From assembly GCA_027943245.1 (NCBI GenBank), contig JANDJZ010000228.1, forward strand, positions 1 to 64,000: a stretch of DNA of 64,000 nucleotides. Reading direction: 5' to 3'. Below are positions 7,419 to 46,732 of this stretch, piece by piece. A model generated the notes under the pieces. That model searched no databases and was not told where the DNA came from. It worked only from the letters and a program-made list of their open reading frames with translations. The position numbers were made by a program, and so were the translations under genes. Source of the stretch: Acanthamoeba sp. SK_2022b. Lineage: Eukaryota; Discosea; Longamoebia; Acanthamoebidae. How positions within the stretch are numbered: the first letter of the stretch is position 1; each line of letters begins with the position of its first letter.

Positions 7419-8107
7419 ACAACACACACACGTGAACGACTCACCTTGCGGCAGATCGCAAGAGAGACAAGACGAGGGCGACCAGAGGTAGACCACGCGG
7501 CTGGACGTGCAGAGCGCGAGGCGGGTCTGCGTCGGGTGCCACCGGGCGGACCTGATGGGCTGCTTCTGGACGAGCAGCGCTACCAGGGACATCTTCACGG
7601 CGTCCCACACCCACAGCATGTTGGGCACGCTATCTACGCACGCACACAAGCACACAAGCACACAAGCACACAAGCACACAAGCACACAAGCACACAAGCA
7701 CACAAGCACACGCACACGCACACGCGCCGATGAGAACGTGTTGCGTCGTGTGAGCGGGTGACACGCGCGTACCGCTTCGGGAGAAGAAGTGGGAGCTGTC
7801 GTGGCTCCAGCTGAGCATGCCGATCCCCTGCTCGGGGTTGGCCTTGAGCGGATCGACCCGCACGCCCTTGAACTCCACCGGATCGTCGTTGACCCCGTCT
7901 GCTCTCGAAGCACGCAGAGGGAGCGGCCGATTAGTCATCATCATTAATTCATTTATGAAAATAAAATATAAATAATTAATAATTAAAAGGAAAAGAGTGA
8001 TGACAGCGTACAGACGGTGCTCCGCGTTGCATGCCTGTCTTGCTCGAGGAGCTCTTCGCCTTCGTCGATCCATCGCCTGTCGACCTCGCGGAACACGGTC
8101 TGATAGG

Positions 8108-30387: not shown

Positions 30388-32528
30388 ATGAGCGTGCTCC
30401 AGGACGCGTCCTTTGAAGTCCGTCGACATGCGGTCGGCGAGCTGGACAGCAGCCTAGTGGGACACACCGTGCTCGTGCGGGCACGCATACACCACTTGCG
30501 CTCCAGTGGTAGGTTCTACCTCTATCCCGTTCATCCATTGCTTTTGCTCATAGAGCAATGTCGCAGGCAACAACCTAGTGTTCCTGGTGCTGCGGGAGGG
30601 CACACGCACCATTCAGGCGGTGCTGGTCCGCCGCAACATCTCCGTAGAGACCATCAGACTTGTACGAAAGTAACAGCCCTCTCCGCTCCCGTGGCACCCA
30701 ATGCATTCTCGAGGTGGCCCATTCGCACAGTCTCACCGTCTTGCGCAGAACGGGCCAGGAGTCGCTGGTCGAAGTGGAGGGCAAAGTGGTAGAAGGCCAG
30801 ATCAAGTCGTGCACGCAGACCGACGTGGAGATAGACGTGCTTCGAATCGTGATCATCAGCCAGCCCGTCCAGCGCCTGCCCTTCACCATTAGCGATGCCT
30901 CGCACCCGTACAGCGATGCGATGGCCTGGGAAACGCAGGCTGAGCTCATCGAAGCTCGGGTCGCCGCCGCGGAGGACGCGCTCGACCAGTCTCGCAGTAC
31001 GCCTTGCCGCTTTGTCCGAGAGGTTCATGAACATAGACTCAACGCGAGCCCTTGCCCTGAAACGTCGCAGAGGCGGAATCGCACAATCTAGCCGATGTTC
31101 AGGAACGCCTGGAACGCCTCCATCTCGAGCGCCAGCGCTTGGCCACAACCGTTATCCTCTCCAACAACGTGCGATTTGACAACCGTGTGCTCGACCTCAG
31201 GGTGAGTAGGGGCTCTCGCGTCGTGGTGGCGGTGACTGGCGTCCCACTAAGCGCAGTAAAACCGTGTGATGACAGACGCCAGCCAAGCACGCCCTGTTCA
31301 AGATCAACTCGGGCGTGTGCCAGCTGTTTCGAGAGTTTCTCCTCGAAAAAGGCTTCATCGAGGTTCACACTCCCAAGATACGTTCGGCTACCCAGGCCAC
31401 TGGCTTCCAAGACCAGTTCAAGCTGCGCTACTTTGACAGTGCGTGTCCCTTGCGCACTTTATCTCCCTCTGCCCCCCCTCCCGTGCGCTCGAAAATCGAC
31501 CCGGCGTGTGCGCACTTGGGCAGGAGAGGCGGTTCTGGCCAGCTCGCCTCTCCACTTGCAGAGCGCGGTCTGCGCCGACTTGGAGCGCGTGTTTGAGATC
31601 GGTCCGGTATTCCGTGCACACGCGGCCACAACCCACCGCCACCTGACCGAGTACACTCGCCTCGGTATCGAGATGGCCCTCTCTGAACATTACCATGAAG
31701 TGACGTGCCCCTCTTCAACCGCCAAACCATCACCTGCTCTGATACGTCGCCCTCACACCACACTCATCCAAAGCTGCTGGATTTGGTGGACGAGCTGTTC
31801 GTGTGGATCTTGGACGGGCTCAGCTCGCGCCACGCCGACGACGTGGCGGCGGTCCGACTCCAGTACCCGACCGAGGACGTCTCCTACGCGCGCCCCTCGC
31901 TTCGTCTCACCTATGGCGAGGCTGTCGCCCTGCTCAACGCCGACACCAACAACCCCTACCCCTTCAACCTGGCCCAATTCGACGATTTGAGCGTCGTCGA
32001 CGAGCGGCGCCTGATGAAGCTGGTGAAGCGGAAGTACGGCGTCGATTTCTTCATCGTCGACCAGTACCCGAGCTCCTGCACGCCCTTTTACAACACGCCC
32101 TGTCCTCGCGAACCCGTACGAAACCCTTTGGACTCGCGACAGGTCTGCCGGCGGCCGCTGCTCATTTTAAGACTCTCCCGCGTGATTGGACAGCGATTGG
32201 CGAATGCCTTTCGGGCTTACCTGCGCAGCGACCAAGTGTGCTCGGGAGCGCAACGCGTGCACGACGTGCAGGTGCTGGCTCGGCGCGCCCAGCAGTGCGG
32301 TGCCAGCCCTTCCTCCACGCAGGTAAGCGAGCTCCTCTCTGAGCGCGCGTCTTGCTTACCCTGACTGACCGCGGTGCTCAGGCTCTGGCGGAGGTCCTAC
32401 AGTTCGGTGCGCCGCCTCACGGAGGCTGTGGTATCGGCCTCGAGCGCCTGTTGATGGCCCACCTCGGCCTTCACAACGTTCGACACGCCTCCCTCTTTCC
32501 TCGCGGCCCCGAGCGAATGAAGCCATGA
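30388..32528 (+). CDS. DARS1: Aspartyl-tRNA synthetase (eukaryotic cytosolic type)
   Basis: Nine exons: 30388-30508, 30567-30661, 30714-30996, 31071-31201, 31276-31438, 31524-31699, 31774-32115, 32194-32322 and 32382-32528, giving 528 residues. An N-terminal OB-fold (VRARIHHLRSSG, then LREGTRTIQAVL) precedes the class II core. Class II motif 2 is VFEIGPVFRAHAATTHRHLT with EYTRLGIEMA; SGAQRVHD is the aspartate-specific block; motif 3 is GCGIGLERLLM. It attaches aspartate to tRNA(Asp) in the cytosol. The core is diverged at places (for instance YPSSCTPFYN where YPL..RPFY is usual). The exon 2/3 junction (intron 30662-30713, 52 bp) is inferred from frame. Confidence 0.9.
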
Positions 32529-32589
32529 GTTCACATGTACATGCACATTCCATTCATTCTCCCAAACGCACGCACAATAGGTAGTGTTT

Positions 32590-33274
32590 CTACGGTTGTG
32601 TGAGGAGGAAGGGAGATGCGTTGCCGTCGACCAACATGTGCTCGCCATAGGGGTCGTCCACACACGACACCGTCGCGGCGTCCCCCAGCCCAGCCGATCC
32701 GGCTGTGAGGTAGTCGTCGACGTCCAGTTCCACACGACCGCCGTCGCCGTCGGTCGTTGCCACCTCCAATGCGGGATTCGGCGACTCGACCTCGCGCGGG
32801 TCGATCAGGCGCCAGCTCTGGGCTGCTGAGACGCCGTATCGAGCCTGGACGCCACTCGCGGCCATTGCACGGAGTCAGCCAAAGCCCGCGCAGTGGGCGG
32901 TGGGGCGAGATATGGGCGGCACCTTGCCGCGGTTGTCGAAGAAGAACTGGAGGACGAACGAGGCCCGGAGGGTGAAGCCGTTCGTGCTTCGGATGATGGG
33001 CTCGGCGGAGAGGAACTCGCTCACGTACATCGGCGGCCTGCATCGGGCAGGACGATGTCTTGCGTAAGTTCACGCTCTCGCATGGTGCGCGCGTGTGCGA
33101 TGTGTGTGAGGTGAGCGCTCACTTTTCCTCGGCGAGCACGCGTGTGGCCTCGTGGCAGTCTCCGCTCTCGGCCCACAGTTGCATGAGGGGATAGCCGACC
33201 AGCTCGCTCTGTCGCGTGTGCCCCCCCCAAAACCAAATCACGCATCAGCAATCTCTCGCCGCTTGGAAGACGGG

Positions 33275-33354
<80 letters not shown>

Positions 33355-34591
33355 CGCCGATCACCTGTGGAATGCCGACGAGTTGAGAGAAGGCCAGATT
33401 GGCGTATGTGAGCACGGGCGGGTTCAGGTCGATGATCCTGAACGCCAGGAACGGCAGCCTGCCGTAGTGTGCCGTGTACACCATGTGTTGTGTTGTGTTG
33501 TGTTGTGTTGTGTTGTGTTGTGTTGTGTTGTGTTGTGTTGTGTTGTGTGTGTCAGTGTGTGCGTGTGCGTGCGTGCGTTAGCCACATGTGGCAGGCTCGA
33601 GCGCGCGGGTGTCGTGAGCGGTACCGTAGGTCTTGTACGACAAAGTCGCGTGGAGAAAAGACGTAGCTCGAGAGGAATGGGATGTGCTGGTGAACGTGCT
33701 GCATGATGGCGAGCGGAGACGCGTACAGCGCCGAGTAGCTCGACACCGGCAACGGCGAATGCGGCGACAGCGACGCCTCTGGCGGTGACGACATGTACGA
33801 ATTCGACGAAGACGAAGAGGGTGAGGTCGCCTTCATGCTCGCCGACGTGGCGCTGATCCTTGGCTGGACGGCGAGGCGCGCCTTGTCCTCCACCTCGCGC
33901 TCGAGCGCGTGCCGGAGCTGCTTGGCCTCGGCCCGCTGGTGTTTGAGCTTGGCCTTGGTCTTCCTGAGCTTGGCCCGCAGCTTCTCGTTCTCATGGCGCG
34001 TGCACTGCAGCTCCTCCGACACCATGTCCAGAGCGCTCCTGAGCAGCGCGTTGGCCGAAGGCTCGGCTTGTGACGGCGATGGCGACGGGTGGTGCGCGAG
34101 CGGCGTGCGCGGGGAGATGGCGAGGAAGGGCAGCGAATCGAGGCCCGCATGCACTGGGAGCTTCTGGCCCGCGTCGGCAAGGACAACGCCGTTGCCGGTA
34201 GCAGTGGCAGTGGTGGAGAGCGGCTGCTGGGGCTGGGAACGCAACTGACTCTGTTGGCGCGACTTGTCCTTGGGCGCCTTGGGCGCCTTGGGGTCGGCAG
34301 CGTCGCTTCGTCGCGGTCGGCCGCGCTTGCGTAGTGGCACGTCCGCGCACAGGTGGGCCCGCCCGGCCTTCTCACATCGGTCACAGGGCCTCTTCCTGTA
34401 ATTGATTATTATTATTATTATTTGATTTTATAATCAAATAAAACGTAAATAAGCGCAAAGGAGGTGTACGTCTCGCACAGTGCGTGTGCACGACGACAGA
34501 AGTTGCAGGCCAGGCCGACCCCAGGTCGAGCCTCCGCGGGCTCGCCTTCCCCATTGACCACAGCGTCGCCAGGTCTGTGTATTCGCTCCAT
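32590..34591 (-). CDS. Zn2Cys6 - AT-hook - PAS transcription factor, paralog A
   Basis: Six exons: 34591-34470, 34395-33625, 33458-33365, 33208-33123, 33037-32923 and 32844-32590, giving 480 residues. The binuclear cluster ACNFCRRAHALCETKRPCDR then CEKAGRAHLC spans the exon 1/2 junction with spacing CX2CX6CX5CX2CX8C. Right after it, PLRKRGRPRR is AT-hook-like. A basic coiled coil (ENEKLRAKLRKTKAKLKHQR) and a Ser/Pro-rich linker precede a PAS domain (PPVLTYANLAFSQLVG, LRASFVLQFFFDNRGK). The architecture recalls fungal ERT1/AcuK regulators, which pair Zn2Cys6 with PAS. A nuclear DNA-binding sensor is likely; ligand and targets unknown. It is the shortest of four paralogs. Confidence 0.85.
33279..33352. 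repeat. GT microsatellite in intron
   Basis: (GT)n inside intron 3 (33209-33364) of paralog A. Confidence 0.95.
33484..33548. repeat. TGTTG pentamer tandem repeat in intron
   Basis: About twelve perfect copies of TGTTG in intron 2 (33459-33624) of paralog A; read on the gene strand it is CAACA. Confidence 0.95.
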
Positions 34592-34756
34592 GCGTTGTGT
34601 TGGGCTATGCTGTTCTTGTTCCCACCAGCGACGATTGTCCAGCCCAACCTTGAACCTGCTCGCTAATCTCAAGAATGGCCACCCAAACTTACGGCGAAAT
34701 TTTATAAATTCCGCAACCGCTGGATTTTGTTCATGTCGGCGCTTCGGTCTTGTGCT

Positions 34757-37700
34757 TCACTCCTCGAGGGGCGCCGTAGCCTCGGCCTGTTGTCGCAGTT
34801 GCTGCTGTTGCATGTCCTGGAACCAGGCCTGATCCTTCACGAACGCAAAGTCGGCCAACTGCGATTCCTTTGCCTTCATTCAAATGACAACACGTTGGAG
34901 CCAGTCAGTCAAGAAGTGCAGCCAATGGATGCTCATCCCGCCTCGCGAGACTACCCCGCGTACCTTGGTAAGGTATCGCTTGGACGCGCATTTGGCCATC
35001 CATTCCCGACATTCCTCCACCTCGTTTGCCGCTGATTGTTGCCATTGACAAAGCTGTCAGTGTGTCCATCGAGGAGAAGGCAAGCGCGATCAAGTGGTGA
35101 AGAGGAAGAGAGGGGAGGGAGAAAAGGGGGGGAGCTAGAACCAGCACAGAGACGAGCCATGCAGAAGTAGGTCCACAGGTCCTCCTGCGCTATTCCGTAC
35201 TCGAGCTTGGCCTTCCCCGTCGCCAGCAACCGCCAGTAGTCGCCCTCGGCCTGCGCGGCGTCGGCCTCCTTTTGCTTCACCTCTTGCTCGAGGGCTTTCC
35301 TCTTGTCCTGCGTGGCTTCATCGTCGCCCTCGCTATCGACACACGACACACGGAGACAGGTGAGGTCACTGTGCGGCTGTGCTGCGTGGGGAGGAGAGAG
35401 CCTGAGCGCAACCAGCTGAGGATCTGCTCTCGACACCGGTCGATGTCTGCGCGCAGGGCTTGCCCGCGGGCGTGGCACGTGCGTGCTCGCAGGCAGTAGA
35501 GCATCGCCCAGTTGCACAGCGTTAGGCAATCGAGATCGTCCAGCCCGAACGACAGCTGCGCGTCGTTCCAACCAAGCCAAAGCCAAGGTCAAACGGTTGG
35601 CCGCACAACACAAGGCTCCACCATCGAGAGAAGGGGGGGCACCTTGTACTTGATGTGGGCCAGCTTGAAGAGCCTGTCCCTTTCAGGCCCGTCTTCTATC
35701 TCTGCTTTCTCGCGAAGAGCGTCTGCACGTACATAACAGAGAGTGTGCGCATCGGATTGGCCTCGAGAACTGCGCGCGGGCTCCGGGGGTGGGGAGAACA
35801 AGAAGCAAGCCACATACCGGCCCAGTTGCTGAGCACGACGGAGTCGCAGTGCAGCGCGTTGCATTCCTCGTACTTCATGAAGCACTCGTCGAAGAGTCGC
35901 CTGGCCTCCTATGTATTCATACAACAATGATTTAAACATTTAATTTAGTATTTAAATTCCAATTTAGAAATTTGCGCTGAGGGGATGGGGAGGGCGCACG
36001 GCGTGGTTGTTGATGCGGACGTTGAAGTTGGCATGCTCGCGTATGGCGTAGGCCCAGTTCTCGAGGAGGAGGTAGTCTGGCCGCTTACGTCCGTACAACA
36101 TCACCGCTTCCTGTCACGCCCGTGCTTGTGAGAGTGAGATCAACGCTTGAGCGCTGGGATCGGAGGCGGGACATGGCGACCTGGTACTTGTCGTAGGCCA
36201 GTTGGAAGAGCCGGCCAGTCTGCTCCTCTCCGCCCACTCCGCTGTTGGCGAAGTCTCGTATGACGCCTGCACGAGGCTGCCCGTTAAAATCGCCGCACGA
36301 AAAAATATAATAAAACAATAAATAAAATAATTAAAAAAAATATTCTTCGCATTGATGCACAACGCACCAGCCCAAGCGCACAGGGTGCCGCTCTTGTCCC
36401 GGACCGAAAGGGCGGTGGCCGAAAAGCACTTCTCGAACGCCTCGCACGCCCCCTCGTACCACTCACGCAAGTCTGTGCATGCGTTGCGTTGCGTGCGTGC
36501 GCGAGTTGTGTGATGTCACGCCATCTCTGTTGCGTCTCCCCTCCATCAGACGTGATGCGGGTGTACCAGCAGGCTTGTGCGGGAAGTGGCGTTGGTAGAT
36601 GGTGAACTCGTGCGTGACGTCGCCCAGCGCAAAGTAGATCTCGAACTGCTCCTTGGGCGCCTGCGCCACGACTCGAATCGTCAGCCAGGTGCACATGGGG
36701 GAGTGGCGCGCACGTCGGCTACGCATTGGTGCGCGGGAGAGCGGAGGTCGGCCGCGTACGGGTCCGTAGGAGAGGGCGGAGAGGTATTCCTCGCGGCAGA
36801 TGAGGTACAGCAGACGCATCTCCATGGTGTCTCTGTCCTCCTTCAGCTGCACCGGGTCGTCCTCATCCTACACGCACACAGCACACAGCACACAGCACAC
36901 AACACACAACACACAACACACAACACACTATCAGTGATGCCTTGGCCGATGGGGGGACACTGGCGAGCCACGGTACCGTGGTGACCTTGGGTAGCTTTTG
37001 GCGGAGGCGTTCGCCCCACACCCAGTAGGTGCTCATGTTCCGCTTCCCGCGGCTGCTGCATACGTCGTCCTGCGACGGCTCCGCCTCTCCGCCATTGCTG
37101 CCATGAACGCCGTGGTCGGCATCGGCGTCGGCGTCGGCGTCGACGCCGCTGGCGCTCGTGCTAGTGCTGGTGCTGGTGCCGCCAGTCTCTGCGGCCATCA
37201 TGGCCTGGCTCAAGAGCAGCAGGAGAGGCTCCGATGCGGAGTTGAGTGAGCGCAGCGCGGCGTGTAGCGGCGTCGACGAAGGTGAGGCGGGAGCCGATGC
37301 CGGGGACGACGCTGTATCCTCATCCACGTCCTCCTCGTCTTCTTCGTCATGGGGGTGGAGGTGGAGAGGAAGGGCATGAGCATCACCATGCTCGTGGTCG
37401 CGATCGTGGTCGCCTTTAGGCTGACGGAAGTGGGCGCGTTCGGTTTGGAGGCGCAGACGGAAGAGCTGCTTCCACGACACGATGCCCCTCACCTTGGGCA
37501 GCGGCCGGCGCTCCCACGCCAGCCCGTTGGGTGCCTCACTTCCCTCTTTGAACCACTCCCGCGCGTACAATCGCCGCCACTGCCTAAAAAACAAGAAAAA
37601 ATGATACCGTGTTACAAAATATTTAAAATAAACAAGAGAACAATTAAATTATTCGAAAGAAGAACATTAAAAACATAAAAAATATAAAAATTAGGAGAAG

Positions 37701-37934
37701 AAAGGAGGGGTGGGCAGAGGGGCAGGCGCACAGGTCGTCGTCGGCGAGGGCGCGAAAGGGACGAGAGACGAGACAGAGCGAGACACGATCCCGTGCATCG
37801 AGGAAGGACAGCACGTGTATCGTCAGCTCCAACGGCAGAGGTTCACCGCCCACCTCAAGTCTGGGGAGATAGTCCATCACCGCTCCCTCATCACCAGAGC
37901 GTTGCGCAGATCCTTCCGTCTCTTCGCAATCCAT
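34757..37934 (-). CDS. F-box protein with TPR-like helical repeats
   Basis: Thirteen exons: 37934-37732, 37583-36977, 36867-36760, 36660-36567, 36472-36368, 36266-36145, 36110-36000, 35908-35818, 35722-35643, 35555-35413, 35332-35142, 35031-34964 and 34873-34757, giving 679 residues. The F-box is PLPLELTIHVLSFLDARDRV. A His/Asp and (DA)n-containing low-complexity stretch follows (about residues 120-240). The remaining ~400 residues are helical pairs with a recurring pattern: an LF(D/Q/K)LA..KY helix followed by an NWA helix (LFQLAYDKYQVAM, LLLENWAYAIREHA, LFDECFMKYEE, VVLSNWAG, LFKLAHIKYK, LCNWAMLYCL), which I read as TPR-like. SCF substrate recruitment is the likely role. It sits between Zn2Cys6 paralogs A and B. 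Confidence 0.8.
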
Positions 37935-38525
37935 CGCTTCTCCTTTAAAAAAATAGACATAAAATATTTTTTCTTTGTCATGGTTTCCTGAAGAAGAAAA
38001 AAATGATGGCACAAACATGGCGGTGAGCAGAAGGCGCCAGGCATTGCAAGTGCAAGCGAAAAAACAAAATAACGCTTTTCTTTGATCAAGCTATTGCTAT
38101 CTTGTTCTCTTTTATCTGTGTACCAAAGTACAGCCCTATACAAACCAGATCAACTCACTACCACAGGAGACGTGTGAACAGCTGGGCATCCCACAAGGGA
38201 GTTCAAGGAACTTGTTGCCTACTCCGGCCAAGCACAACCACCACCAGAACAGCCTGCCCACCCTGTTGTTATCATCACAATGTGCTGACCTCTACACCAT
38301 CAGGTCTGGACCGTTGTCTCTGTCCTTGTTAATTTCAGCACGTCTCTCACTTTTGGAGTGAATAAATGGTCACCTTCAGTTACAACCCACATCAAGTGTT
38401 TCACGTGACACCGCGGCTCTCGTCTGGCTTGGTACCTTTCCTCGTATCTGTCCAGTGTCTCCGTCCAGGAGTCCAGGTTATAAATGGCACTTGCTTTAAA
38501 GAACGTGGCTTTACTTGACAAGACA
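37935..38525. other. Intergenic region
   Basis: About 590 bp between the F-box/TPR start and the 3' end of Zn2Cys6 paralog B. No supported ORF, repeat or RNA gene seen. Confidence 0.45.
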
Positions 38526-39957
38526 CTAAGCGTGGTCTTGCCAGGACGTGGCAAAGGGAGGAGTAAAGGAGAACTCCCCACCGAGCGACGGTGAGTCCAG
38601 AGATATCGGGTGATACGATTCCTGATGGTGGGCCGGGTAGTGGTGTGTTGGTGGCGCGTTGGCCGATGTGTGCGGGTGGGGCGCAGCGTGCTGGATTGGA
38701 GCCTCCCCGCTGTTGGAGTTCCATGCCTCCGGAGCGTACAGGAGGTCCAGGCTGTTCGATCGATTGTTGGCCGACGACGACGACGACGACGACGTTGTAG
38801 AGGGAGAGGAAGACGAGGCATCGGCCGGAGAGGAAGAGGGAGGAGGCAAGAACTCGCACAGCGGTACCCAGGGCTCCAGCACCTCGCCCTCTCGGAAGTT
38901 GTCTTCGCGCCAATCGGAATGGGTGGCCAGCCCATACTTGACCTGTCATACATGGTGAGCGTCAGAAGTGAGCAGCAGGCCTTCTCTCTCTCTCTCTCTC
39001 TCTGAGAACGAACACACGAAAGACCGGGCGGGGGGCACGTGCATGTCCCAGCGCATCGTAAAAGAGTTGCAATCTCTGGTGCGTGCGCAACAGGCGCCCG
39101 TCCTTGCACATGTAGAGCGGCGTCATGAAGAGCACCGAGCTGGCCGACATTGGCTTCCTGTGTGCGCAGAACCCAGCCACCATTGAGTAAATTCAAATAA
39201 ATAAGACATATTTACAATGTGGTGCCCCTGGGCAAGGCGATAGGACGGCGCGTACTGGTTGAAACACAGGAAAGCAAACTGTTGGATCAATCTACGGTTG
39301 GTCACACAGAAGCGTTCTACGCTCGATCCCACCACCTCGCTCTGCTCGACGTCCGCCGTTTCCGTCAGCAGCAGACTGGGCCAACAACAGTCGAGGCTAG
39401 AGCAAGTCAACGTACGCGAGTGTAGCCGAGCATGTGGGCGAACGTTGCATTGGCGTAGAGCACGACCGGCGCTGTTCGTTCGTACACCGACTGGAACACG
39501 ACCGCCCAGATCGGTTGGCTGACAGGCCGCGCCGGTAAGTCGACAAACACGGGACACGTGCGGGGAGGAATGGGCGTGGGGCAGTCACCTGAGGTCGCGT
39601 ATGACGAACGAGTGCTGCGAGATGTCGTACTGGGCGAGGAACGGCATGAAGCGGGTGGCCTCCTCCACGAGCGACCGCGAGTGCATGGGCACCAGCGGCA
39701 GCGCCACCAGTGTCGAGTAGTCGTAGTCCGGCTGACTCGTGCCGCTGCTGCTGCTGCCGTCGCCGCCTCTCTGCTCCGCCACCGCGCCGGCGTGTTCCTG
39801 CTGGCGCTGGTGCTGTTGCACATCCTCCCCGTCATGCGCGAGGCGTTGGCGCTTGTGGGGCAGCGGCGCCGTCCTCTCCCACTCGTAGTACTCATGTTGG
39901 CTGCCGCTGCCGCTGCCGCTGATGCCGCTGCCCATGTTGTTGCGGTAGTGGTTCTGG

Positions 39958-39989
<32 letters not shown>

Positions 39990-40841
39990 ATGCTGCTGGA
40001 GTTGTGCGAAGGCGAGGGACGAGCGGAGATCGGCCTGAATCTGCCTGGTCTTCATCTCCTTCATCTTGAGGGCCACCTTGTGCATCTTGGCCTTGAGCCT
40101 GTCGTTGTCGCGGCGTATCTCCCGCATCTCCCCGGCCATCATCTCCACCATGCTCGTGAGCAGGTTGACCTTGCTCAGCACCTCCCGCCCCGTCAGGTCG
40201 CTGTCGTTGTCGTCGCCACTGCTGTTCGTGCTCTGCTCCACCTCGTCATCGCCTCCCGTGTGTACCGCTGCCAGCTTTGGCTCCCTGTATCCGCTCCGAG
40301 TCGTTGCAGTGGACCGCGTCGACGTCGACGACGTCGTGGTCGCTTGTGGTGTGGGCAGGATGGGCCTGCTGTAGGCTTCGGCTGGCATCCATGGCTCTAC
40401 ACGCGCACGATGCGCCATTGGGAGGCCAGTTTCGGCTGGAGCAGGAGCACGGACAGGGACAGGGACAGGGACAGAGCCAGTCTTACGTTGTTTGGGCCTG
40501 GGCTTGGGCTTGGGTTTTGGTGTGGCGTCGACTGCGCCGGTGTCCCGCTGTGGCAAAGCTGTGTCTTGGTCCCTGCGCGGGCGGCCGCGCTTGCGTAGTG
40601 GCACATCCGAGCAAAGGTGGGCCCGCCCCGTCTTCTGGCACCTCTTGCAAGGCCTCTGCCTGCACCCGGGCAAAGAATCGATTCATTAAATCGGTGTGGA
40701 GGGGGGGGGGCTAAATGGAAATGACAAATGCGCATACGCTTCGCAGGCAGTGTGAGAGAGTCGGCAGAAGTTGCATGCCAGTCCTATGACCGGCCCCACA
40801 GAGTTGCCTGAGTTTGGCTTCCCCTCGACCAACGGCTCCAT
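38526..40841 (-). CDS. Zn2Cys6 - AT-hook - PAS transcription factor, paralog B
   Basis: Six exons: 40841-40738, 40659-39589, 39518-39416, 39341-39256, 39157-39043 and 38942-38526, giving 631 residues. Cluster: ACNFCRLSHTACEAQRPCKR then CQKTGRAHLC, same spacing as paralog A, followed by PLRKRGRPRR. The linker has a poly-Gln/His run ([12 protein letters not shown]) and a coiled coil (DNDRLKAKMHKVALKMKEMK). PAS core: APVVLYANATFAHMLGYT and CKDGRLLRTHQRLQLFYD. The exon 5 length of 115 nt conserved in the other paralogs can be kept here only if the intron starts with GC (GCACGTGCC), so this intron seems to be GC-AG. The C-terminal exon is Ser/His/Pro-rich after a conserved WREDNFREGEVLEPWVPL block. 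Confidence 0.83.
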
Positions 40842-40907
40842 CTTGTTGGATTGAGAAATTTATCACAAACGTTTTCACTCCTCGTTAATAACACGGCCAC
40901 AAAGCTC

Positions 40908-41993
40908 TCACCAGGAGGGCAAGTGGTTGGTGGAGAGCAGGGCTTCGAGCTCGGGCGTCTGCGGCGCCCCGTGAGTGGCCAGGCTGTCATCGCCGCCATT
41001 GCTGTTGCTGTGGATGTCGTTGCCCAGATGATGCCCAAGTGACGAGGACGACAACGATGACGGCCTCACCGCAGAAGAGGAGAACGGTGGATGTGAGGAG
41101 GAAGATGAGGTGGAAACTGGCATGACCGACGGCGAAGATGATGAGGATGAAGATGAGAAGGAAGACGGTGAAGGATTGGAGGAGTTCCTGAGGTGCGCCG
41201 TCGTCTCGTCGAAAGAGTGGGAGCGGCTGCTGGGCGGCCGCGCGTCCTCGATCTGAGGCGACAGCACCTTGACCAGCGGCACCCAGTGGTCGAACCCGTA
41301 GGTCTCGCCCTCCTCCAGCCACCCCTCCTCCCAGTCGAGTATGCACATGACCGAATAGCGCGTCTACACGCGGGCAATGCCACACACGCACGCGTTCAGT
41401 TGCATAGAGGCGGCGAGTTGGGAAGCAGGACGGTCGCGCGTACGTTGCCCTGCTGGTCGTAGAAGAACTGGACGTTTTCGTTCACTCGAAGAAGCGAGCC
41501 GTCCTTGCACCGGATGAGCGTGCGCACGCGGTACATGTCACTCACGGTCATCGGCGGACTGGGGTAACGGCCGACAACGATAGCGCGCGCGCACGCACGC
41601 AACACAGGTTGAGTTGCAGTGAAACAAACCCGTACACGCGGTCTTGCAATTTGCACCCGGGCCGGGTCGTTACCGGTTGATCATGATCGGTGCCAGCGCC
41701 CTGTACTGCTGTTCGTGGACAGCAAAGATCATCGCGTATGGCGCGTCCATGAGATCGCCCTGTCGACGCGCGCGCACGCATGAGTCGCTGTTTGTATTGC
41801 GACACGGGCTGTGGACCCCCGAAGAAGCCGAGATCTGGTCTGGCAGCACGCACCCAGGAGTACTTGGTGAGGCGCATGAAGGCGGGGTTGACGTAGCAGA
41901 CGGTCGGCGGCGTATCCGCGAATATCGAAGCCGTCAAGAACGAACACACCGGGAAGCTTACGGTGAAAGCCACGTCAGCATTGTTGCTCATCC

Positions 41994-42076
<83 letters not shown>

Positions 42077-42493
42077 GTGCAGTGTAACCTGAAATCGGGT
42101 ACGGCAAAGGGGTAGGGAATGTCGTAGGAGCAGAGGTAGGGCATCTGATGCCGGGCCTCCATGATGACCGGGAACGGCCGTCCGCCGTGGAGCACCGACA
42201 GCTCGTAGGAGAAAGGAGAGGTCGCGGCAGGCAAGGGCGGCGACGACCCGGTGGGCGACGAGCTCGAGACCGGGCTCGAACTATACGCGGGCGGCCCCGC
42301 CGTGGTCGTCGTCATCTTCAACGACGACGGCGACGACAGCGACGATGACGACGACGACGACGACCATGCCTGCGACAGCGCGTTGGTGGACGCATCAGTC
42401 ATCGAGGGAGCTCTCTCCTTCGGCAGCGAAGTCGTCGATGCATTCTCGCCCAACATTTGGAGCAGCTGCTGCTGGTATTGCTGGAGATATTGA

Positions 42494-42552
<59 letters not shown>

Positions 42553-43590
42553 GTCGTTGCTGCTGCTGCTGGCCTCACGGCGCCGCTTGGCTTCATCCGC
42601 CTCGTGCTGCGCGCGACGTCGTTCGGTGGCGAGGAGGCCTGCGACGTGTGTCTTGGTCTCCTGTTGCACCACCTTGAGTCGCTTGACCTTGGCCCGAAGC
42701 TTCTCGTTGTCGCGCCTCACGTCGCGCAGCTCGCTGGACATCATCTCGACGAGCCGGGTCAGCAGTCCCAGCTGGCCCTCGTCCTCCCTCGCCGTCTTCT
42801 GTCTCTTTCGCTTCTCTTCCGAGAGGTCTTCGCGCTGCTGATGCCCTTCTATGCGCGAGCTGGGGGTCGTGGTGGTGCTCGTGCTGGACGGCTGGGCTCC
42901 GCCGTCTGTCGACCCGCCGCCAACGATATGCAGTTGTTGCTGCTGTTGCTGCCGCTGTTGCTGAGACTCGCGCTTGACGTCGCGATGCTGGTCCGACAGT
43001 TCTGGCGGGCCATCCACGACCTTGGGCGGGCGGCCTCGCTTGCGTAAAGGCACATCCGAGCACAGGCTGCCTCTCCCCACACGCACACACCTGCTGCAAG
43101 GTCGTTCTCTGCACAGGAAAAGGATTAAAATATGTGTTCATTATATATATACATTGGTTTTATTTATTTAATTATTTATTTCATTTGAGTGTATATACAC
43201 TGGGAGGGGAGAGTACGAGTCGCAGGCGGTGTGGGCGACGCGACAGAAGTTGCAGGCGCGCACATGGCCCAGCTGACCGCCAAGGTGGTGCTGGATCTGT
43301 GGCCCGCCCCCTCCCGCGCTCCCGGGCGGCGCTTGTTGCGGCGGTCGGTGGAGCGGTGGCTGCGGCGGCAGAGGGAGGCGGGGCAGGGGAGCAGGCGGCG
43401 GACGATGGAGCGGGAGCTGTGTGGGCAGCGGTGGCTGTTGCTGCTGGAGATGGTGAAAGGGCGCGAGCCCGCCTATGCCTGGCAGCGGCGGCGGTCCTCC
43501 TCTCGGCTGCACGACCTGGAAATCCATCTTCTCTTCTCCCCACGCCGCGGGGTTGCCTGCCGCCCCTCCACTACTTCTACCCCGCTCCAT
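40908..43590 (-). CDS. Zn2Cys6 - AT-hook - PAS transcription factor, paralog C
   Basis: Six exons: 43590-43217, 43108-42089, 41956-41854, 41759-41674, 41558-41444 and 41363-40908, giving 717 residues, the longest paralog. A Pro/Gln-rich N-terminal extension of ~110 residues precedes the cluster (ACNFCRVAHTACDSERPCSR then CVRVGRGSLC) and PLRKRGRPPK. The linker has a coiled coil (DNEKLRAKVKRLKVVQQETK) and a long poly-Ser run coded by AGC triplets. PAS core: PPTVCYVNPAFMRLTKYSW, then APYAMIFAVHEQQYRALAPI, then CKDGSLLRVNENVQFFYDQQ. The conserved WEEGWLEEGETYGFDHWVPL block follows, then a Ser-rich tail. A CA/GA microsatellite lies in intron 2. Start chosen at the first ATG in frame. Confidence 0.87.
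41996..42077. repeat. CA and GA microsatellite in intron
   Basis: (CA)n running into (GA)n inside intron 2 (41957-42088) of paralog C. Confidence 0.95.
42494..42552. repeat. Coding CTG/AGC trinucleotide run (poly-Ser)
   Basis: About 19 perfect CTG units on the plus strand, read as AGC (Ser) by the minus-strand paralog C. Pure triplet runs of this kind are prone to length change. Confidence 0.92.
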
Positions 43591-43734
43591 GACAACACAA
43601 CTGGTGGTCTCTCGCGACTTCCCAATCCTGGCCAAACTTGTTCAACTACGCGTTGCTGACGTCATACGCCCGATCGTTGCGCGATTTTAATTGACGCCTA
43701 TGTTCATAGAATCTTCCTGCGCAAGAAGGGCCTG

Positions 43735-46063
43735 TCAAGGCCATTGGGCTCTCGTTGAGGGAAGAACAGGCGAAGAAGTGGAAGTGGCGGGCAGGGAAGC
43801 ATAGCTGGCCTGGTGATGATGTTGCTGGTGCGGTTGGGCGGTGTTGTGATGGAGAGGGAGCGGCACAGATGCGCTGGGATGTACACTCAAGGAAGTAGTG
43901 GAACGAGGAAAGTAGTCGGAGGAGGAGGGCGAGGGCGACAGTGAGGTCGAAGGCCACGCCGACGTGGTGTGGCTGGGGCTGGGCTTGGCCCCGAGAAGGG
44001 TGCGCAGGGGTATCCAATGGCCCAAGACCTCGCCCTCCTCTAGCTCGCCCTCTCGCCAGTTGAGAACGCAAACCAGCGTTTCCTTCAGCTGCAACACACG
44101 ACCGATAACCATTAATGTCAGCCCATGTACGTGCGTGCTACATGTTGTGTGTTTGTTGTGGTTTCCACTCACCGTCCCGTTCGTGCCGTAGAAGAACTGA
44201 ACGTTCTCGGTGATGCGCAAGAGCCTGCCGCCACTGCAACGCATCAGCGCTGTGAAGGTGAACACGTCGCTCGACGTCAATGGTGGCCTGCGCACGCACA
44301 AGAGTCAGCACACTCTCTCTCTCTCTCTCTCTCGCCAGGAGAGATGCCATACCGATTCAAGATCAGGTGGGCGACCTTCTTGTAGTTGGGCTGGTGGACG
44401 GCGAAGATCTCATGAAACGGCGCGCCCGCGATTTCTTCCTGTGGCGTCGAGAGTTGTTTCGTGTTGTGGTGAGTGGAGAAGTTGGTGAGCCACAGTGAGA
44501 TCGCGCAATGTGTGGCCACGGTGGCGAGAAGAAACCGACGAGATCGATGCACATACCCATGGCCTACCGATGAGCTGCGTGAAGGCGGCGTTGGCGTAGG
44601 ACATGGTGGGTGGACCGTCGCCCAGCGCCGACGTGAGCGAACACACCGGGTAACTGAACCACACGCACACGCACATGCACACACGTCAGCGTTAGCGTTG
44701 GTTCAGTTGGGCCGCCTGCGAGCCCAAACGGCATGCACGGGGAGGCCGTACGCGAAGTCGATGACGGCGAAGCGCGTGGGCATGGCGTAGTGGCGGAGGA
44801 AGGGCAGCATCATCCGAGCCTCCATCTGCAGACCCGGCGGCGCGTGGGTGTGCAGCAGCGCGATCTCCGACGAGAACGAGCCGAGCCGACGACTGGCGAG
44901 CGCAGTCGACGCCGACGCTTGGGTGGTCGTGGACAGGGCGTAGTCGGATGGAGTGGGAGATGAGGACGAGGACGAGGAGGGGGAGGGCTGCTTGTCCGTC
45001 TCGGTCATCGCCAGCAGCTGGGCCAGTTCGCTGGCTGCGTCGTCGCTGAGCTCCATCATCGCGCTGAGCGAAGCCGGCGAGAGCGCGAGCCCGCTGCTCG
45101 CTGTAGGCATGATGTGCCCAGCCACGGGATGGCGCTGCTGGCTGTGGCGCTGCGGGTGGGCCCCGGGGCTCGTCACCGAGGCCGCGGCGGCGAATTCGGA
45201 CGCGTGGTCGAATCGGCCCAGCTGTTGTTGCTGTTGCTGGATCATCGACTGTTGCAGCTGCTGTTGCCGTAGCCGCTTTCGCTGCTTGGCCTCTTGCCGC
45301 CGCCGCTCGACGGCGACGAGCTCGCCGATGGAGTGGTCGGACTCCACCTGCCTGGCCTTGAGTCGCTTGAACTTCTTGACCAGCTTCTCGTTGGCGCTCC
45401 TCAGCTCGCGCATCTCGCCGCCCAGCATCTCCATGAGCTGGGTCAGCCGGTCTAACTTGCCTCCATCGGAGCCCGAGCCGCGCTCCGCGTTGTCAAGCCG
45501 CGATTCCGTCGCGGCCAGCGCCTGCGAGTTGCCGCCATTCGCATCTGCGGCTGGCTGCTCAACTACCGGGGCCGGCCTGTCTGTCTCGACTCGAGTGGAT
45601 GGCATGCTCGAGCGTGTGGAGTCCTCCTCGCTCGTGGTGGTGGTGGTGGGTAGAGGTGGGGCGGCGGCCGTGCCATCAGTTGCTGCGGGCGTCGGGCGCT
45701 GGGGGAAGTAGTGCTCAGCGTTGCGAGGAGGTCTGCCCCTCTTGCGTGGCGGGACCTCGGAGCATTGCTGCGCGCGTCCGGTTCTCACGCATCGACCACA
45801 GGGCCTTTCCCTGTGATCACAGCTTCAGCGGCGTGTTTTATTTATTTATTTATTTATTTATTTATTCAAATAAATAATTCGGTAGTTATTTATTTGAATA
45901 AGAAAAAGGATTTAAAAGGACAGGAAGGCCCGTACGGGTCGCAGGCGGAGTGCGATATCCGGCAAAAGTTGCAGGCGCGCACCCCCTCCGGCTGGCCCTT
46001 CTCTGGGGGTCGGGCCGACGGATCGCCTCCTTGGTAGAAGTGCAGATTTTGCAGCGAGTACAT
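43735..46063 (-). CDS. Zn2Cys6 - AT-hook - PAS transcription factor, paralog D
   Basis: Six exons: 46063-45936, 45810-44752, 44653-44557, 44438-44353, 44287-44173 and 44088-43735, giving 612 residues. Cluster: ACNFCRISHSACDPERPCGR then CVRTGRAQQC, followed by PPRKRGRPPR. Linker with coiled coil (ANEKLVKKFKRLKARQVESD) and Gln runs (IQQQQQQLG). PAS core: PPTMSYANAAFTQLIGRPW, PFHEIFAVHQPNYKKVAHLI, RCSGGRLLRITENVQFFYGT. The block LVCVLNWREGELEEGEVLGH precedes a Ser/Pro/His-rich tail. Introns and phases line up with the other paralogs, except that exon 3 is 97 nt against 103 in B and C. Start at ATG 46063; longer upstream open frame exists but has no better ATG. Confidence 0.87.

Positions 46064-46677: not shown

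Positions 46678-46732
<55 letters not shown>

Follow-up and report, generated by a model that had tools for sequence, protein, structure and literature searches.

A dispersed family of zinc-cluster genes with a PAS-like domain in Acanthamoeba

Zinc-cluster regulators are usually called fungal. The literature places zinc clusters only in fungi and amoeba (PMC4025492) and describes their occurrence outside fungi as patchy, with no commonly accepted account of origin (PMC5415576). An expansion in Acanthamoeba castellanii was published in 2013, with 22 zinc-cluster factors compared to 3 in Dictyostelium (PMC4053784). The closest described layouts are fungal, in AcuK/AcuM (Ert1/Rds2, Aod5/Aod2) and Cryptococcus Pas2/Rds2, which join an N-terminal cluster to a later PAS domain and are known for sensor-type regulation of metabolism or the hypoxia response (PMC12719309, PMC8092316). 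Mutations in the PAS domain of AcuK/AcuM impair function, and Pas2, itself a zinc-cluster protein with a PAS domain, binds its partner Rds2 (PMC12719309, PMC8092316); the PAS domain has been hypothesised to mediate formation of the AcuK-AcuM complex (PMC12719309). Here, we analyze four minus-strand genes, A to D, of Acanthamoeba sp. SK_2022b, which likewise carry an N-terminal cluster, with a spacing compatible with the fungal one, and further on a PAS-like domain. They lie between 32590 and 46063 of a 64,000-nucleotide window (contig JANDJZ010000228.1 of assembly GCA_027943245.1, positions 1 to 64,000).

Each of the four genes encodes, in the same order, a six-cysteine cluster (CX2CX6CX5CX2CX8C), an RKRGRP motif (the hook), a coiled-coil-like stretch and a PAS-like domain, and the genes belong to a genome-wide family of 54 detected loci, so that a large branch of this protein class is now seen in amoebae. 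We consider it likely that the proteins are dimeric DNA-binding regulators switched via the PAS domain. The A. castellanii factors are of this protein class too and come from the genus studied here or one close to it; their 22 stand against the 54 loci found here by spliced search, with hook, coil, PAS-like domain and shared intron, a comparison of counts only. The term "PAS domain" is absent from the main text of the A. castellanii paper (PMC4053784), as are "zinc" and "PAS domain" from that of an encystment atlas (PMC9283445), and among the literature matches listed, all open-licence papers, we found none that describes an amoebal family of zinc clusters linked to PAS.

Gene models and shared architecture of genes A to D

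Rebuilt on the minus strand, all four genes have six exons with phases 0/2/2/0/2/0, an exon 4 of 86 nt and an exon 5 of 115 nt, which bears out the structure proposed in an earlier note made from the DNA sequence alone. Gene A occupies 43735..46063 (exons 46063-45936, 45810-44752, 44653-44557, 44438-44353, 44287-44173 and 44088-43735; 612 aa) and gene B 40908..43590 (43590-43217, 43108-42089, 41956-41854, 41759-41674, 41558-41444 and 41363-40908; 717 aa). Gene C follows at 38526..40841 (40841-40738, 40659-39589, 39518-39416, 39341-39256, 39157-39043 and 38942-38526; 631 aa) and gene D at 32590..34591 (34591-34470, 34395-33625, 33458-33365, 33208-33123, 33037-32923 and 32844-32590; 480 aa). The introns are GT-AG except the fifth of gene C, where a GC donor is needed (39041-39042, minus), as no GT donor keeps both the frame and the 115-nt exon.

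Two related proteins bear on the exon joins: P0001 (657 aa, from a contig of 2056 nt), a near relative of gene B, and P0002 (835 aa, contig of 2564 nt), a near relative of gene A. Since both contigs hardly exceed the coding sequence, they are probably spliced transcripts. The alignment of P0002 with A crosses all five joins with a gap at none. That of P0001 with B, from BLAST, covers B residues 422-625 (78%), including joins 2/3 to 5/6, with gaps only past the last join, and the join between exons 1 and 2 of B, which lies within the cluster, is consistent with the P0001 sequence as judged by eye. The earlier note had named different exon joins in transcripts, or failure of the parts to score as Zn_clus and PAS, as grounds for doubting it; the relatives that are probably transcripts agree with the joins of A and B, whereas in scans of single proteins the Zn_clus cut-off is passed by two of the four and the PAS cut-off by none.

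The zinc cluster is itself split, intron 1 falling one codon and two bases past Cys3 in all four genes. Cluster and RKRGRP together span 45726..45979 in A (45979-45936 and 45810-45726), 43024..43260 in B (43260-43217 and 43108-43024), 40575..40781 in C (40781-40738 and 40659-40575) and 34311..34513 in D (34513-34470 and 34395-34311). The spacing fits the CX2CX6CX5-12CX2CX6-8C of Pfam Zn_clus (PF00172, gathering score 21), with B (24.2 bits) and C (21.7 bits) above the cut-off and A (20.4 bits) and D (18.3 bits) below it; the relatives P0001 (22 bits) and P0002 (21.2 bits) also pass. RKRGRP is present in all four proteins, for none of which does the Pfam scan list an AT-hook (PF02178) at E<=1; P0001 scores 13.8 bits for that model against a cut-off of 17.4. 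Zinc binding by the clusters is a prediction.

Among solved structures, the gene B cluster matches yeast regulators, clearly so only for Pho7 (E 0.0006), with Hap1, Put3 and Gal4 following at E 0.03-1, amid noise. Of the 52 family clusters whose first half can be read, 47 carry His four residues past Cys2, a position held by Asn in Pho7 and by Lys in Hap1 when these are aligned to the gene B cluster. In Gal4, Lys residues of this stretch contact CGG. With His there instead, DNA recognition by the amoebal clusters may be distinct.

Downstream of the hook, a coiled coil is predicted in the family proteins. The stretch lies at approximately 45249..45461 in A and 42547..42765 in B, as read from the translations, and at approximately 40010..40180 in C and 33870..34045 in D by alignment with B. 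Its counterpart in the structural model of P0001 is a helix of residues 239-317, with block pLDDT values of 81-94 over residues 241-310.

The PAS-like domain is encoded by exons 3-5 and the start of exon 6 in each gene, at 44000..44653 in A, 41262..41956 in B, 38855..39518 in C and 32770..33458 in D, the ends in A, C and D being approximate and the tail of D lacking the W-P-L motif of A-C. Scanned singly, the window's four proteins all match PAS models below the cut-offs, from C, the best at 22.1 against 22.6, to A, the weakest at E 0.16. Over 22 C-terminal domains of the family, PAS_9 and PAS are each found in 18 at E<=0.1. A profile of these domains has 3ewk as its best match among solved structures (E 2.2e-7), and the best 60 of its 162 matches are PAS/LOV-type sensor, phototropin, phytochrome, aerotaxis and hERG chains. 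A model of the P0001 segment that is 84% identical to gene B, of middling quality, has PAS topology, and all 50 Foldseek matches listed for it are LOV/PAS entries or fusions thereof; the PAS part of the full-length P0001 model is too poor for use. Sequence profiles and the middling model thus predict a PAS fold, and the series of cluster, RKRGRP, coil and PAS-like domain described in the earlier note is present in all four genes, its last part backed by Pfam over the family, profile search and model.

LOV photosensors are marked by a flavin-cysteine motif of the NCRFLQ type, and this motif occurs in none of the 22 domains, so that a LOV photosensor reading is rejected. It is possible, if somewhat doubtful, that the domain is a degenerate PAS fold without sensing that only pairs paralogues, generating combinations within the family. 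The weak PAS scores of single proteins, the missing LOV cysteine and the strong divergence between paralogues, seen in the alignment and tree of the 22 domains, all speak for such a role, as does the hypothesis that the AcuK-AcuM complex forms via PAS (PMC12719309). Seven columns invariant across the 22 rows are a point on the other side, but one that fits pairing and sensing alike.

In the reading we prefer, that of regulators switched via PAS, two chains would pair via the coil and perhaps also via the PAS domain. The zinc cluster would read a short site of the CGG/CCG type, with KRGRP adding minor-groove contacts next to it. Binding of a small ligand, or of a second family protein, to the PAS domain may alter pairing or activity, as has been hypothesised for AcuK/AcuM. 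If so, the family would provide numerous natural pairings of sensor and switch whose clusters differ, usable for work on DNA recognition.

A family spread across the genome

The assembly that contains the window comprises 45 Mb in 1129 contigs. One of its exons matches actophorin (chain 1ahq, from Acanthamoeba) at 72 of 76 residues, which points to Acanthamoeba or a near relative as the host; other ADF-like exons resemble coactosin-like proteins. To count related genes in this assembly, raw-DNA domain scans are of little help. Scanning the genome DNA with PF00172 gave 12 matches, none of them among the window's four, as the intron inside the cluster lets family members escape such a scan, a trap in counting them. 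We therefore aligned a spliced profile, built from the window's four genes, to places flagged by protein searches, which makes all counts lower bounds. Thresholds were a score of at least 100 for the cluster, every row at or above which was retained in the count, and at least 60 for the PAS block. Reversed DNA reached at most 72.2 and 39.0, respectively, in 50 windows and 65.5 and 31.8 in 33 windows; family members score far above this, and thus above chance. Alignment of single-exon pieces was restricted to those of exons 5 and 6.

Beyond the window, at least 50 cluster loci and at least 29 PAS blocks were found. With the window's four, this gives at least 54 zinc-cluster loci, comprising 52 distinct sequences on 29 contigs, and 33 of the 54 sit on eight contigs that bear at least two each. 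C574/C800 and C300/C874 are pairs of identical sequences, each pair counting as two among the 54 and as one among the 52. Matches on C728, taken as copies of those on C388, and on C448 and C719 stand outside the 54; the C719 piece holds no cluster scoring at least 90 with the spliced profile. Only one best match was kept per strand and stretch, so that neighbors such as C221:76012 may escape the count. Identical or matching loci recur on three pairs of contigs (L004/L020 on C574 with L005 on C800, L031/L076 on C300 with L077 on C874, and C388 with C728), suggesting uncollapsed haplotypes in the assembly.

The features of the four genes recur in these loci. The exact CX2CX6CX5CX2CX8C spacing is kept in 47 of the 50 loci outside the window. 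In 38 of the 50, an intron cuts the cluster at the codon seen in A-D, between Cys3 and Cys4; in 3 the split lies elsewhere, and 9 clusters are recorded as unsplit, two of these being second halves only. In 27 of the 50, a PAS block of their own follows within 1.4 kb of the cluster, and in 3 it is more remote and perhaps a neighbor's; the other 20 are without a PAS block, with at least 2.4 kb downstream covered for only 4 of them (C1063, C221:74300, C574 and C658). Twelve PAS blocks were found as five parts; six of them have the 86-nt exon 4 and the others one of 80, 83 or 95 nt, while ten have the 115-nt exon 5 and the remaining two have 112 and 118 nt. One member, on C237, carries cluster, RKRGRPP, coil-like stretch and PAS-like region within a single uninterrupted frame, for which Pfam lists Zn_clus alone, below the cut-off. 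This locus (L011) forms, with L016 (C491) and L017 (C209), a divergent subfamily with unsplit clusters, one group at 97/90 in the zinc-cluster tree. A further PAS block (L044, C783, plus strand, ~1288-1895) scores 146, with no neighboring zinc cluster recorded on that strand.

Named amoebal homologues did not emerge from the protein searches. The first of these scored a number of candidates capped at 7991, the search with the zinc-cluster region returned no candidates, and that with the PAS region returned P0001 and one match at E 1.3; the lack reflects a limit of these searches and does not argue that amoebal homologues are absent.

The history of the four genes can be followed in a tree of the 22 C-terminal domains. 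The sister of gene D is a gene on another contig, C761 (100/100). P0002 is the partner of A, and P0001 that of B (100/99 in both cases); the rows of A, B and the two relatives group with two C783 genes (86/93), with C standing apart. The two pairs indicate that A and B had already diverged when their lineage parted from the source of P0001 and P0002. The AU test rejects a single clade made up of A-D plus P0001 and P0002 (p-AU 0.0011). For A and B with the two relatives, a clade is not established, nor does the test reject it (p 0.26), and one of A, B and C is rejected at p 0.017, a grouping named only after inspection of the tree. The array thus consists of old and divergent genes from a family that is dispersed, and the proposal of the earlier note that a local duplication made the family does not hold, given the rejected clade, the sister of D on C761 and the genome-wide spread. 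Its description as a tandem family of four needs amending as well. The four genes are indeed neighbors, but an F-box-containing gene region (~37934-34757, minus, with the F-box at its start; F-box-like, 49.7 bits) interrupts the array between C and D.

Possible kinship with fungal regulators and origin of the family

The arrangement that characterises AcuK/AcuM, a cluster near the N-terminus and one PAS domain, is found in A-D, and the earlier note had suggested kinship with ERT1/AcuK. That A-D are amoebal orthologues of AcuK/ERT1 and AcuM/RDS2, controlling gluconeogenesis and respiration as obligate heterodimers, would accord with the equal order of parts, with a cluster spacing inside the published formula and with the possibility of pairs among tandem paralogues. 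The published PAS motif of AcuK/AcuM, G-X1-I-X3-N-X7-G, gives a different answer. Across the 22 domains, its Asn is kept in all, but Gly at -6 occurs in none, Ile at -4 in 3 and Gly at +8 in 11, and 20 of the 22 have Pro in place of the Gly six residues before the Asn. Moreover, fungi have one pair, compared to the more than 50 loci and dozens of genes in the amoeba. With the motif lacking from the 22 domains, neither membership in AcuK/ERT1 nor kinship with it is supported, and we regard orthology as quite improbable.

A fungal likeness is also seen in the cluster of P0006, an uncharacterised protein of the fungus Apophysomyces ossiformis, and in that of P0005, itself inferred to be of fungal origin. 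Both have equal cluster spacing, the His four residues past Cys2 and HKKRGRP behind the cluster; for PAS, P0006 gives a weak match (PAS_3, E 0.07) and P0005 has none listed. Clusters of two amoebal loci, C865 and C221:30703, share 28 identities with P0006 compared to 17 with Pho7. These counts speak for a history in which amoebae acquired a zinc-cluster gene laterally from a fungus, with later multiplication, and extensive transfer has been reported for the Acanthamoeba genome (PMC4053784), as has a proposed fungal source for non-fungal zinc clusters (PMC5415576). Several observations suggest greater age: the large divergence of the family, the intron position common to 38 of the 50 other loci and all four genes of the window, and, mildly, the three zinc-cluster factors of Dictyostelium (PMC4053784). 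A zinc-cluster tree of 55 rows, including P0005, P0006 and Pho7, leaves 30 of 50 inner branches open and does not decide the origin. Weighing these points, we see lateral transfer as conceivable, with rather more to be said against it than for it.

A bolder proposal is that amoebae underwent an independent radiation of more than 50 zinc-cluster regulators, many with cluster, hook, coil and PAS domain, as old as the fungal one, that the coupling of cluster and PAS domain already existed in the ancestor of fungi and amoebae, and that these proteins are a main environment-to-gene sensor set of Acanthamoeba. We put this forward tentatively and think it, taken as a whole, unlikely. A large, intron-marked, PAS-bearing family in amoebae offers material for testing descent versus transfer.

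Neighborhood of the genes

The genes A, B and C are closely packed. Only 66 nt separate the stop codon of B from the ATG of C (40842-40907), and 144 nt lie between A and B (43591-43734), leaving scant space for separate promoters and terminators. No CCGN7CCG sites, the kind bound by AcuK/AcuM in control of gluconeogenesis, were found in the spacers between the genes; CCGG occurs twice upstream of A, compared to 0.79 expected from mononucleotide shuffles, and in none of the other spacers. Convergent with D and ending near it is a class II aminoacyl-tRNA synthetase gene (~31060-32530, plus; tRNA-synt_2, 25.9 bits, in one frame piece). Long runs of CA/GT dinucleotides mark introns of D (~33277-33349) and B (~41996-42072), as well as the gene upstream of A (~46679-46729).

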